64,000 bases of DNA, taken from assembly GCF_000153765.1 (NCBI RefSeq), contig NZ_DS022295.1, positions 93,828-157,827 on the forward strand, in the 5' to 3' direction. Within the stretch, counting starts at the first letter, position 1. Each line of letters opens with the position of its first letter. Of the stretch, positions 52,467 through 61,143 are shown in pieces. The stretch comes from Mariprofundus ferrooxydans PV-1 (lineage in GTDB: Bacteria; Pseudomonadota; Zetaproteobacteria; Mariprofundales; Mariprofundaceae). A program made the translations under genes and the position numbers. A model generated the notes under the pieces. That model did not search any database and was not told where the DNA came from. It was given only the letters and a program-made list of their open reading frames with translations.

Positions 52467-52823
<357 letters not shown>

Positions 52824-52840
52824 GTAAAAGGGAGATCCGA

Positions 52841-54127
52841 ATGAAACATATAATTTCAAAAATCGGTTTGATGCTTCCGGTTGCGTTGCTTGCACCGGGT
52901 ATGGCTATGGCCGAAGACACGTTGAACTCAGGTGACACAGCCTGGATGCTGACATCCACGGTGCTGGTGCTACTGATGACACTGCCGGGTCTGGCGCTGT
53001 TTTACGGCGGTATGGTGCGCAAGAAGAATGTACTGTCGGTGGCAATGCAGTCTCTTTCGATCGCAGCGTTGATGAGCATACTTTGGGTAGTTTGCGGTTA
53101 TTCGCTGGCCTTTGGCGAGGGCAATAATTTTATCGGCGATTTATCCAAGGCCTTTTTCTCAGGTATCGGTGTGGATACCCTTTCAGGGACCATTCCTGAA
53201 ACAGTGTTCGCTACGTTCCAGATGACTTTTGCCATTATTACACCGGTACTGATTATTGGTGCTTTTGCCGAGAGAATGAAGTTTTCAGCAGTGCTGCTGT
53301 TCACCGGTGCCTGGGTGCTGGCCGTATATGCTCCGATTACCCACTGGGTATGGGGCGGCGGCTTCCTGAGCGATGCCGGAGCACTGGACTTTGCGGGTGG
53401 TACCGTGGTACATATTAATGCTGGTGTTGCAGGGCTTGTCTGTGCGCTGGTGCTGGGCAAACGTATCGGATATCCGAAAGAGCCGATGCTGCCACATAAC
53501 CTGACCTATACCCTGATTGGTACTTCGATGCTGTGGGTTGGTTGGTTCGGTTTCAATGCCGGTTCCGAGCTGGCTGCTGATGGTGCTGCGGGCATGGCTA
53601 TGCTGGTCACGCAGGTAGCAACAGCGATGGCTGTGCTGGCATGGACCTTTGCCGAGTGGGTGGTGTTCAAGAAGCCAAGTCTGCTGGGCGCATGTTCCGG
53701 TGCTGTAGCTGGCCTGGTTGCCATTACACCTGCTTCCGGTTTTGTTGGCCCTATGGGTGCTCTGGCTATCGGTCTGGCTGCAGGTCTGATCTGCTTCTGG
53801 GCTGTTGCTTCGCTGAAACGCAAGCTGGGCTATGATGACTCTCTGGACGCCTTTGGCGTGCATGGTATTGGCGGTATTGTCGGTGCATTGCTGACCGGCG
53901 TCTTCGTCTCTTCCAGCTTTGGCGGTGCAGGTCTTGCCGAGGGTATGACGATCGGTTCACAGGTGATCGTTCAGCTTGAAGCCATTGGTGCGACTATCGC
54001 TTACTGTGCTGTAGTAACATTTGTGATCCTGAAGATTATTGATGTCATCATCGGTCTGCGTGTTGAGCATGATGAAGAGCGCGAAGGCCTCGATATCACC
54101 CAGCACGGAGAGCAGGTTTACGAGTAA
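52841..54127 (+). CDS. amtB: Ammonium transporter with cleavable signal peptide
   Basis: 428 residues. A signal peptide (to AMA, about residue 24) is followed by 11 membrane helices as in E. coli AmtB. The pore features are visible: LALFYGGMVRKKNVL (about 51-65), GGTVVHINAGVAGL (first pore His, about 193-206) and DAFGVHGIGGIVGALLTG (second pore His, about 344-361). The C-terminal cytoplasmic tail (EEREGLDITQHGEQVYE) is the GlnK-docking element. GGGAGA precedes ATG 52841. Confidence 0.96.
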   Translation: MKHIISKIGLMLPVALLAPGMAMAEDTLNSGDTAWMLTSTVLVLLMTLPGLALFYGGMVRKKNVLSVAMQSLSIAALMSILWVVCGYSLAFGEGNNFIGDLSKAFFSGIGVDTLSGTIPETVFATFQMTFAIITPVLIIGAFAERMKFSAVLLFTGAWVLAVYAPITHWVWGGGFLSDAGALDFAGGTVVHINAGVAGLVCALVLGKRIGYPKEPMLPHNLTYTLIGTSMLWVGWFGFNAGSELAADGAAGMAMLVTQVATAMAVLAWTFAEWVVFKKPSLLGACSGAVAGLVAITPASGFVGPMGALAIGLAAGLICFWAVASLKRKLGYDDSLDAFGVHGIGGIVGALLTGVFVSSSFGGAGLAEGMTIGSQVIVQLEAIGATIAYCAVVTFVILKIIDVIIGLRVEHDEEREGLDITQHGEQVYE

Positions 54128-55734: not shown

Positions 55735-56946
55735 ATGAATACAGCGGGACTGGATGTTTTTTTTCTCACCATGGGAGCGGCCATGGTGCTGGCAATGCAT
55801 GCAGGTTTTGCCTTTCTGGAGGCGGGAACAGTACGCAAAAAGAATCAGGTAAATGCTCTGGTCAGGGTTATTACTGATTTTGGTTTTTCCACGATTGCTT
55901 ATTTCTTTGTCGGTTTTTCCGTGGCCTATGGTATTAATTTTTTCGTGCCGGTTTCCGAATTGAATATTCTTGGCGGAAAAACCAACGGTTACGAAATGGT
56001 TCACTTCTTCTTTCTGCTGACGTTTGCAGCAGCTATCCCCGCGATTATTTCCGGCGGCATCACCGAGAGGGTTCGTTTTTGGCCCAATGCTCTGGCGACG
56101 TTGATCATTGTTTCTCTCATTTACCCATTTTATGAGGGGCTGATCTGGGGTGGAAACATGGGTTATCAGGGGTGGCTGGAAGCAACATTCGGCGCTCCTT
56201 TCCATGATTTCGCCGGTTCGGTTGTCGTGCACAGTATGGGCGGATTTCTGGCTGTTGGTGCCGTTGTTCTGCTGGGGGCTCGCAAGGGGCGTTATACGAA
56301 AGACGGACGTGTGGTGGCAATTCTGCCGTCGAATATTCCCTTTCTGGCACTCGGTTCATGGATTCTCTGTGTCGGCTGGTTCGGATTCAATGTGATGAGT
56401 GCAGGTAATGTCGAGGGGGCATCGGGTCTGGTGGCGATAAATTCACTGCTGGCTATGGTCGGCGGCTTGTTGGCGGCGCTGGTTGCAGGCAAAAATGATC
56501 CGGGTTTTGTGCATAATGGTGCGCTGGCCGGTCTGGTCGCTATCTGTGCAGGCTCTGATATTGTGCATCCTGTCAGTGCGCTGGTGATCGGTCTGGTGGC
56601 CGGTGCATGCTTTGTTTACGGTTTTCAATTTGTTCAAACCCGGCTGAAAATAGATGACGTGCTGGGCGTGATTCCGTTGCACGGAGGTGCGGGGCTGTGG
56701 GGCGGTATCGCTGCCGGCATCTTCGGCCAGAGTTCGCTCGGCGGGGCTGGCGGCGTCACCTTTATGGCTCAATTGGTCGGCACGCTGACCGGCGTGAGTA
56801 TTGCCCTGGTGGCCGGTTTTGTTATTTATGGTCTTGTCAGGGCCATGCTGGGTATTCGTCTCTCCGAGGAAGATGAATATCATGGTGCGGATCTGTCTGT
56901 GCATAATATCAGCGCCAATCCGGAGCAGGATATGGCCAGCCACTAA
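55735..56946 (+). CDS. amt: Second ammonium transporter (Amt family)
   Basis: 403 residues, 11 membrane helices, without the cleavable signal of the first copy. FAFLEAGTVRKKNQVNAL (about 24-41) matches the Amt start, GSVVVHSMGGFLAVG (about 162-176) holds the first pore His, and VIPLHGGAGLWGGIAAGIF (about 317-335) the second. It differs clearly from amtB, so it is an old paralogue rather than a recent duplicate. GGGGAGGGGG precedes ATG 55735. No PII gene is adjacent and no sigma54 promoter is seen. A strong terminator follows. Confidence 0.94.
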   Translation: MNTAGLDVFFLTMGAAMVLAMHAGFAFLEAGTVRKKNQVNALVRVITDFGFSTIAYFFVGFSVAYGINFFVPVSELNILGGKTNGYEMVHFFFLLTFAAAIPAIISGGITERVRFWPNALATLIIVSLIYPFYEGLIWGGNMGYQGWLEATFGAPFHDFAGSVVVHSMGGFLAVGAVVLLGARKGRYTKDGRVVAILPSNIPFLALGSWILCVGWFGFNVMSAGNVEGASGLVAINSLLAMVGGLLAALVAGKNDPGFVHNGALAGLVAICAGSDIVHPVSALVIGLVAGACFVYGFQFVQTRLKIDDVLGVIPLHGGAGLWGGIAAGIFGQSSLGGAGGVTFMAQLVGTLTGVSIALVAGFVIYGLVRAMLGIRLSEEDEYHGADLSVHNISANPEQDMASH

Positions 56947-58928: not shown

Positions 58929-59786
58929 ATGATCAGACGGCTGCAGGCATTGCCTGCGGCCGTCTTTCTATTGTGCCTGTTTTTTCTGACTGCCTGTGCC
59001 ACTGATAACAAAAAGGCAAGTTGGGATCAGGATAAACCGACGTTCACCCAATCCATTCACGATATACAGTCAGAACAGCAGCGTTTGGCTGATTTTAACC
59101 GCTTACAGGCTGCAGAGGTTGCCTCACTGACAACCAGAATGGATGCACTTGAAGCATTGAATCAGGAGTATCAGTTACAGCAGGCGCAGATTCAGGCTCT
59201 TTCTGCCCAGATTGAGGGTCTTCAGCGCAAGCAAGCGAGGAAACCCCGGTCATCATCTGCACATACACCATCACCTGCACACACACGTGTCACTACAGTA
59301 AAAAAACATCCTGCCCAACCGGTAGCAGCAGCACCCGTGGATGTCGCCCCTCCCCCCCAGCCGGTAGTAGATACGGCTGCTCAGGCTGATGCCGAAAAGA
59401 ATGCTTATACCGCAGCCTATCTGGCCCTGAAGAGCGGGCGTTACGATGAAGCGGCGAACGGCTTCAATAAGCAGTTGGATTTGTATCCGAAGGGTGAATA
59501 CTCTGATCAGGCATGGTACTGGCTCGGTGAAACCCGCCTGGCTCAAAATGATGGCGCCAAGGCCCTTAATGCATTTAAATATGTGGTTGATCACTATCCG
59601 AGCAGCGTCAAGCATGCGGCGGCGCTGTTTAAAATGGCGCAGATATCCGTAGATAACAAGCAACCGGCGCGAGCAATTGAATATTACAAGCGACTGATCC
59701 AGGAACATGCTGATTCAGATATGGCTGAGCAGGCACGGGCCGCCCTTAATGCTCTGGAACATCCGGCTACGGAGAGCGGACAATAA
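58929..59786 (+). CDS. cpoB: Cell-division coordinator CpoB (YbgF)
   Basis: 285 residues. The signal region ends in a lipobox-like LFFLTAC (about 14-20). A coiled-coil segment (about 38-95) is followed by a low-complexity Pro/Ala/Thr linker and a C-terminal TPR domain starting AYTAAYLALKSGRYDEAANGF (about 158-178, in parts). YbgF_trimer plus TPR is the normal architecture, and CpoB links Tol with peptidoglycan synthesis. ATG 58929 is used; the frame upstream overlaps pal. If the lipobox works, this is a lipoprotein unlike soluble E. coli CpoB. Confidence 0.92.
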   Translation: MIRRLQALPAAVFLLCLFFLTACATDNKKASWDQDKPTFTQSIHDIQSEQQRLADFNRLQAAEVASLTTRMDALEALNQEYQLQQAQIQALSAQIEGLQRKQARKPRSSSAHTPSPAHTRVTTVKKHPAQPVAAAPVDVAPPPQPVVDTAAQADAEKNAYTAAYLALKSGRYDEAANGFNKQLDLYPKGEYSDQAWYWLGETRLAQNDGAKALNAFKYVVDHYPSSVKHAAALFKMAQISVDNKQPARAIEYYKRLIQEHADSDMAEQARAALNALEHPATESGQ

Positions 59787-60454
59787 CCATCAACAAGTCG
59801 GGGCATCGCCTTCGCATTCACGAGATTTATGACAGCATCCAGGGTGAAAGTACATTGGCCGGCATGGCCTGTACATTTATTCGTTTGGCCGGCTGTCCGT
59901 TGCGTTGTACCTACTGCGATACGCCGCAGGCGATTCCGTTCGACAGCGGTGAGTGGATGCAGATTGACGATATCGTAACGGATGTACAAAAACGTAATCG
60001 CCCGCTGGTGCTTGTAACCGGCGGTGAGCCACTGGCTCAGCGACATTGCTCCGAGCTGCTGAGTGAGTTGTTAGCGCTGGGATGCGAGGTGCAGTTGGAA
60101 ACATCAGGTGCTTACCCGCTGGCAAGTCTGCCGGTCGGGGTGCGCAGGATTGTTGATCTGAAAACACCCGGTAGCGGTGAGGCCGAGCGAAATCGACTGG
60201 ATAACCTCTCCTGCTTGTGTGCCGGTGATGAGATAAAAATGGTGCTGACCAGCCGTGCCGACTACCAATGGGCCGCTGCAATGATTGAGCAGCACCGATT
60301 GGGGCAGGGCGATGTGCCTGTCCTGCTTTCCGCCGCCTGGGGGTCTCTGAAGGCTGAAGAGTTGTGTCAGTGGATGCTTGATGACCGGTTGCCTGCTCGT
60401 TTACAATTGCAGTTGCATAAAGTGATTTGGGGTGCGGAGGCGACAGGCGTATGA
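59783..60454 (+). CDS. queE: 7-carboxy-7-deazaguanine synthase, apparent AUA start
   Basis: A radical SAM enzyme of queuosine synthesis. The cluster motif CPLRCTYC (CX3CX2C) follows IHEIYDSIQGESTLAGMACTFIRLAG (in parts), the standard QueE beginning; VTGGEPLAQ binds SAM. The first ATG/GTG/TTG (TTG 59855) lies inside the conserved QGEST motif. Upstream to the previous in-frame stop (59747-59749) no canonical start exists. GGAGAG at 59771-59776 stands 6 nt before ATA 59783, which overlaps the cpoB stop as ATAA, where an ATGA would be expected. I infer an AUA start. About 223 residues result, normal for QueE. It overlaps queC in ATGA. Confidence 0.88.
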   Translation: MTINKSGHRLRIHEIYDSIQGESTLAGMACTFIRLAGCPLRCTYCDTPQAIPFDSGEWMQIDDIVTDVQKRNRPLVLVTGGEPLAQRHCSELLSELLALGCEVQLETSGAYPLASLPVGVRRIVDLKTPGSGEAERNRLDNLSCLCAGDEIKMVLTSRADYQWAAAMIEQHRLGQGDVPVLLSAAWGSLKAEELCQWMLDDRLPARLQLQLHKVIWGAEATGV

Positions 60455-61143
60455 GTACAGGTGTTACGCATGCTGTTGTACTGCTCTCCGGCGGTCTGGA
60501 CTCAAGCACGGCGCTGGCATGGGCGGTCAGGAAGATGGGTTGGCAATGTCATACGGTCGCTTTTGATTATGGCCAGCGTCACCGGATTGAACTGGATGCA
60601 TCGGCTGCCATAGCGCATTCGTTCGGTGTGACGGATCACCGTGTTATCAGTGTGGATCTGCGTGCGATAGGTCACTCCGCACTCACCTCCGCCACGCCGG
60701 TACCCAAGGATGAAGCTGGTCATGCAGGCATTCCATCGACCTATGTGCCGGCCCGTAATCTGATCTTCCTCTCTCTGGCAGCCGGTCTTGCCGAAGCGGT
60801 TTGTGCTACGCGACTGGTTATTGGTGCCAATGTTGTCGATTATTCCGGTTATCCGGATTGCCGGCAGGAGTTCCTTGATGCTTTCGTACGTACAGCGCTG
60901 CTGGGTACGAAAGCGGGTAGTGAAGGGGGGGATCTGCAGATCGCTGCGCCGTTGATTCAACTGGGCAAAGCGGAAATTATCGAGCTGGGGCTGGATCTGG
61001 GGCTGGATTATGGATTGACCCGCTCCTGCTATGACCCCTTGCCGGGCGGCTCCCCGTGTGGCCACTGTGACTCCTGCTATTACCGACGTCAGGGCTTTGA
61101 ACAACTGGGCAGGCAAGACCCGCTTGCTTACCCCGACAACTAG
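60451..61143 (+). CDS. queC: 7-cyano-7-deazaguanine synthase
   Basis: Converts 7-carboxy-7-deazaguanine to preQ0 with ATP and ammonia. The 230 residues show the PP-loop VLLSGGLDSSTALAWA (about 10-25), FDYGQRHRIEL (about 39-49), YVPARNLIFLSLAAGLAE (about 99-116) and the zinc-binding C-terminal CYDPLPGGSPCGHCDSC (four Cys, about 193-209). ATG 60451 overlaps the queE stop in ATGA. Pairing with queE and proximity to tol-pal is common in Gram-negatives. Confidence 0.95.
   Translation: MSTGVTHAVVLLSGGLDSSTALAWAVRKMGWQCHTVAFDYGQRHRIELDASAAIAHSFGVTDHRVISVDLRAIGHSALTSATPVPKDEAGHAGIPSTYVPARNLIFLSLAAGLAEAVCATRLVIGANVVDYSGYPDCRQEFLDAFVRTALLGTKAGSEGGDLQIAAPLIQLGKAEIIELGLDLGLDYGLTRSCYDPLPGGSPCGHCDSCYYRRQGFEQLGRQDPLAYPDN

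Follow-up and report, generated by a model that had tools for sequence, protein, structure and literature searches.

We analyzed a window of 64,000 nucleotides from the Mariprofundus ferrooxydans PV-1 genome (contig NZ_DS022295.1), in which pal, cpoB, queE and queC follow each other in this order in one operon. Table 1 lists the features around the junction between cpoB and queE, which reads directly as CTACGGAGAGCGGACAATAACCATC. Here, AUH denotes AUA, AUC or AUU, and SD the Shine-Dalgarno sequence. On its 5' side, the queE frame runs back to a TAA at 59747-59749, and it ends with TGA at 60452-60454; between the upstream stop and the codon for E14, it contains no ATG, GTG or TTG. The motif GGAGAG, with a spacing of 6 to ATA, forms a duplex of -6.6 kcal/mol with the anti-SD CACCUCCU. 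The four bases at 59783-59786 (ATAA) are shared by the cpoB stop and the queE start, an overlap of -4 nt.

Table 1. Features at the cpoB-queE-queC junctions (positions count from the first base of the window)
Feature	Position	Strand	Remarks
cpoB (ybgF)	58929..59786	+	Upstream gene, ending in CAA TAA; TIGR02795, E value of 3.7e-25
Shine-Dalgarno GGAGAG	59771..59776	+	Within the end of cpoB, 6 bases 5' of ATA
queE start ATA	59783..59785	+	Well supported; canonical start absent; AUH kept in 40/69 zetaproteobacterial loci
cpoB stop TAA	59784..59786	+	ATAA common to the stop and the queE start; likewise ATAA/ATAG in most AUH loci
queE, 7-carboxy-7-deazaguanine synthase	59783..60454	+	223 codons plus stop, counted from ATA; TIGR04349, Radical_SAM PF04055
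TTG, earliest canonical start in the queE frame	59855..59857	+	Rejected; would remove invariant E14-S23
queC	60451..61143	+	Starts at ATG, which overlaps the stop of queE as ATGA; serves as internal control

The product of queE is an enzyme of tRNA modification. The protein read from AUA matched the QueE model TIGR04349 with an E value of 1.5e-78 and 263 bits (under the model's cut-off of 300 bits), with profile positions 1-207 (207 of 210) aligned to residues 10-219. Its match to PF04055 exceeded the cut-off, and the radical SAM motif CxxxCxxC (C38xxxC42xxC45) was invariant in the alignment. CpoB scored 88.8 bits against TIGR02795, for which the cut-off is 90.1. Similarity to known QueE proteins starts at residues 9-10 of the AUA-started protein, and E14, Y16, Q20, G21 and E22 were invariant among 17 aligned relatives. 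All five residues are encoded 5' of TTG 59855, which bears out the original prediction that conserved QueE sequence extends upstream of the first canonical start. When aligned with Escherichia coli QueE, Q20 and E22 fall on its residues Q13 and E15, which are described as substrate-binding (PMC11142719). Use of this TTG, named at the outset as a finding that would speak against AUA, was rejected because the conserved stretch E14-S23 would be lost, and most relatives have no such codon; the AUA start was not refuted on this count.

We regard it as improbable that queE starts at one of two other noncanonical codons, ATC 59789 or ATT 59816, the latter just 5' of the conserved HEIY. The first lies at codon -11 from E14, where relatives carry AUH, but its spacing to the SD is 11, versus 6 for ATA, and the ATA region of the window aligns with CGG-RCA-ATA of the nearest relatives (L003 and L004), with two extra codons following. 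At the position of ATT 59816 there is an ATG in L006, L009 and L010, but both this ATT and those ATG codons have an absent or poor SD, and E. coli QueE begins upstream of the corresponding point. A start at AUA 59783 is well supported by these comparisons, as originally proposed (after GGAGAG with a spacing of 6, and overlapping the cpoB stop as ATAA), given the lack of a canonical alternative and the retention of AUH and SD in relatives.

A search for QueE covered 78 zetaproteobacterial genomes, and the junction was read at each retrievable locus, so that 69 loci were classified. A locus was assigned to the AUH class when the SD of an AUH codon was -3.9 kcal/mol or stronger and all canonical codons fell short of -3. 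There were 40 AUH loci, 28 canonical ones and 1 undecided. Within the AUH class, the AUN codon with the best SD was ATA at 33 loci, ATC at 6, ATT at 1 and ATG at none. Nearly all Mariprofundus genomes carry GGAGA and then ATAA, while the Ghiorsea-type genomes have GAGGTGA or TGGAGN followed by ATAA or ATAG; GGAG or GAGGTG occupies the matching place in relatives. Several other genera also have ATAA or ATAG, or else ATC or ATT equally far from the SD, down to about 55% QueE identity. The AUH codon lies 9 to 13 codons before E14 at most loci. At some of them (e.g., L007, L008, L012, L030, L049, L053 and L056), a stop in the queE frame is found directly or a few codons 5', with no canonical start after it. 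A canonical codon is in frame but lacks an SD in the AUH-class loci L006, L009, L010, L017, L036, L044 and L048, among which L044, with an ATG without SD at codon -7, is a doubtful member of the class. At two loci where queE lies outside the main genera (L063 and L071), a clear start of any kind is absent. At another (L064), ATC follows GGAGGC, with no canonical start upstream and with the cpoB stop 3' of ATC.

These relatives also bear on the origin of ATAA. The original prediction had derived it from an ATGA junction, altered in this strain by the replacement of one G with A, and had suggested looking for ATGA in related genomes. One base does separate the two motifs, but ATAA is present in the independently sequenced M. 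erugo P3 and M. micogutta ET2, in strains EBB-1 and KV and in many metagenome-assembled genomes (MAGs), and no AUH-class locus has ATG at this place. A strain-specific mutation does not agree with ATAA/ATAG or ATC/ATT being common to relatives as far as ca. 55% QueE identity, and both a sequencing error and a recent mutation, whose probability we consider negligible, were rejected on the same grounds. Being common to about 40 genomes, the noncanonical start looks like an old, kept feature rather than a recent mutation, whether or not a distant ancestor of the AUH lineages carried ATGA.

In a tree of the QueE sequences from residue E14 on, the AUH or canonical label required 7 changes, versus 22.4 for shuffled labels; since the tree was unrooted, gains and losses of AUH are indistinguishable in this count. 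Lineages with canonical starts mostly use another start position, where the SD is weak or absent, which may reflect a trade-off between the strength of the start and that of the SD. Several genera have canonical queE starts, moved to or retained, and AUH is therefore dispensable for the gene. Two Mariprofundus loci (L005 and L016) moved to canonical starts, TTG with AGGA and ATG with a weak SD, respectively, and the cpoB stop is located further upstream in both.

The presence of an SD anywhere in the region is uninformative by itself, as 110 of 207 control cpoB stretches have one, and a spacing-aware test was therefore used. At 37 zetaproteobacterial loci, the window included, no canonical start was found at codons -20 to -3 before E14. 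Of these 37, 36 had an AUH codon preceded, at a spacing of 4 to 9, by an SD of -5 kcal/mol or stronger, versus a background of 43 among the 788 AUH triplets in cpoB of the same loci (binomial P of 4e-40, a nominal value that is inflated because the loci are related and their independence is overstated). The controls that follow matter more. In the AUH genomes, genes lacking a canonical start before their conserved part numbered 0 of 39 for queC, 0 of 26 for pal and 0 of 40 for cpoB; a lineage-wide relaxation of initiation was rejected, as these three genes keep canonical starts. Outside the Zetaproteobacteria, queE had a canonical start in all 20 sampled proteobacteria. We also compared 30 open reading frames (ORFs) of the window, among them antisense frames, with the syntenic regions of four relatives. 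Those flagged were queE, a single pilin-like ORF for which an ATG start is plausible, and frames lying antisense to real genes.

The anticodon is the ordinary CAU in both initiator tRNA genes, and a UAU tRNA was not found among 43 tRNA genes. A special initiator tRNA for AUA was discarded as an explanation, and AUA must accordingly be read with a mismatch at the third base. The RNA structure of the junction was no more stable than that of shuffled sequences (z of +1.03).

The AUA codon overlaps the cpoB stop, as ATAA or ATAG, in most AUH loci, the exceptions being L015, L017 to L019, L022, L030, L044 and L054. In L015, L018 and L019 (AUC) and in L017 (AUU), cpoB ends in a TGA located two codons 5' of the start; in L022 (AUC), the stop and the start share one base; in L054 (AUA), cpoB terminates upstream at a TGA; and in L030 (AUA), it does so further downstream at a TAG. 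At all of these loci except L044, AUH stands near the usual distance from the SD, and the third base is A, C or T and never G. This pattern is suggestive of an avoidance of G where the overlap has been lost, though short of proof because the independent lineages are few. The ATA of queE is not entirely a shadow of the cpoB stop. Since most AUA codons also form part of that stop, cpoB may nevertheless account for part of their conservation.

This leads to a competing view, to which we give an appreciable chance, although one well below even: AUA is the start, but its weakness is not selected. The cpoB gene would simply keep its TAA, and AUG would be unneeded because ribosomes that have just terminated re-start on AUA well enough. 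The overlap in most AUH loci fits this view, as does the general finding that 4-nt overlaps favor termination-reinitiation (PMC10666635). Against it, AUC, AUU or AUA remains without the overlap at the loci detailed above (L015, L017, L018, L019, L022, L054 and L030). Moreover, ATGA would satisfy both overlapping genes, and the junction that follows in the operon, between queE and queC, has it in 24 of 39 readable AUH-class loci, the window included. In L020, L021 and L031, the latter junction contains ATAA or ATAG, which were rejected as starts, as queC has ATG or GTG there.

The offset between the cpoB stop and the queE frame was constant in 38 of 40 AUH loci, versus 7 of 28 canonical ones. 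That queE lies in the -1 frame relative to cpoB in those 38 loci is also what would be expected if queE had no start of its own and a -1 slip at the end of cpoB produced a CpoB-QueE fusion. We consider this most unlikely. CpoB is a periplasmic protein, whereas QueE is a cytosolic enzyme; a -1 slip on GACAATAA would leave CAA in the P site unable to pair again; and the spacing of the SD suits initiation. In L012, L030 and L056, besides, an in-frame stop lies 1 to 2 codons 5' of AUA; ribosomes might slip at the stop itself, but a slippery site is absent.

Taken across genomes, the position of the start, its conservation, the missing alternatives, the SD, the gene specificity and the ordinary initiator tRNA point to a shared mode of initiation. 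We think it likely that queE of Mariprofundus, Ghiorsea and related iron-oxidizing Zetaproteobacteria has a conserved weak AUH start, placed by the SD, that keeps the dose of QueE low and is probably coupled to cpoB and sensitive to IF3. The SD in the last cpoB codons would hold a 30S subunit or a post-termination ribosome over AUAA, where fMet-tRNA(CAU) would pair with the first two bases of AUH. The mismatch of the CAU anticodon at the third base should make initiation weak, with the strong SD compensating in part, and IF3 would disfavor the mismatched complexes, leaving QueE synthesis at a fraction of what AUG would give. From these features we infer low efficiency, coupling and IF3 sensitivity, as well as selection for a low dose. 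This dose would probably depend on the translation of cpoB and be held down by IF3, in the way known from infC. E. coli makes queuosine-modified tRNA without induced QueE (PMC11142719), in keeping with a small requirement for the enzyme. A division block by excess QueE was set aside as the cause of the weak start, since in E. coli this effect depends on a region reported from enterobacteria and distant relatives are unifunctional (PMC11142719). It is conceivable, but rather doubtful, that AUH places queE under IF3 sensing, with shifts in initiation fidelity or free IF3 shifting QueE and the queuosine in four tRNAs. If true, tRNA modification would be linked with the condition of the initiation apparatus in much of the class.

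To our knowledge, bacterial starts that are conserved but differ from AUG, GUG and UUG have seldom been documented. One such case is infC, which encodes IF3, starts with AUU, AUC or AUA and is subject to autoregulation by IF3. Among the infC loci read here (L154 to L159, L152 and L153), six Mariprofundus genomes have AUU as the start, after AAGGGG or AAGGAG, with AAGGGGGCTCGT-ATT or AAGGAGTCTTGT-ATT as the sequence; the two Ghiorsea-type genomes apparently have AUC. As in queE of the same genomes, the conserved AUH start of infC follows a strong SD and is read with a third-base mismatch. Unlike infC, queE encodes a biosynthetic enzyme and not a translation factor, so that a direct feedback loop is absent, and in most cases its start merges with the stop of the preceding gene.

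In Staphylococcus aureus, initiation at AUA or AUU after a strong SD reaches about 10% of the AUG level, with ccpN attaining as much as 30% in rich medium (PMC13009471). The genes ccpN (AUA), cvfC1 (AUU) and citZ (AUA) resemble queE in their AUH start and strong SD, and for ccpN and cvfC1 the start is likewise conserved among relatives; however, they are other genes of another phylum, demonstrated by ribosome profiling and reporters, whereas queE was approached by comparison only (PMC13009471). The Streptomyces sigR start, GTC, is repressed by IF3 (PMC5472188). Similar to queE, a noncanonical start and a strong ribosome binding site have been kept through the genus (32 of 34 GTC and 2 GTT), and the start was misannotated in genomes; in contrast to queE, the codon is GUC instead of AUH, the gene is regulatory and the start has been proven experimentally (PMC5472188). 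The ATGA overlaps of operons have the same 4-base union of stop and start and the matching frame relation, but at queE the third start base is A, which gives an AUA start and a TAA or TAG stop (PMC10666635). Our search of the open-access literature found nothing on queE, Zetaproteobacteria or an AUAA stop-start overlap in connection with AUH starts. Conserved AUH starts with a strong SD (infC, ccpN and cvfC1), together with the GTC of sigR, were already known, and what is new is this initiation principle in another gene and lineage, where the start and the preceding stop are usually fused.

The queE case extends AUH starts to an ordinary biosynthetic enzyme in much of a class, usually AUAA-fused to the upstream stop. 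It suggests that the annotated queE is too short or has a wrong start in AUH genomes. Furthermore, the natural series of AUA, AUC, AUU, TTG and ATG at this gene, with the SD changing to match, offers a test of dose selection on weak starts.

Two minor observations were made elsewhere. Two MAG records (L141 and L150) are titled Klebsiella pneumoniae, but their QueE is of the zetaproteobacterial/myxococcal type (47 to 50% identity), and the titles look wrong. Within the window, the ORFs at 52820-54127 and 55735-56946 resemble paralogous ammonium transporters and have an ORF of 370 amino acids between them.
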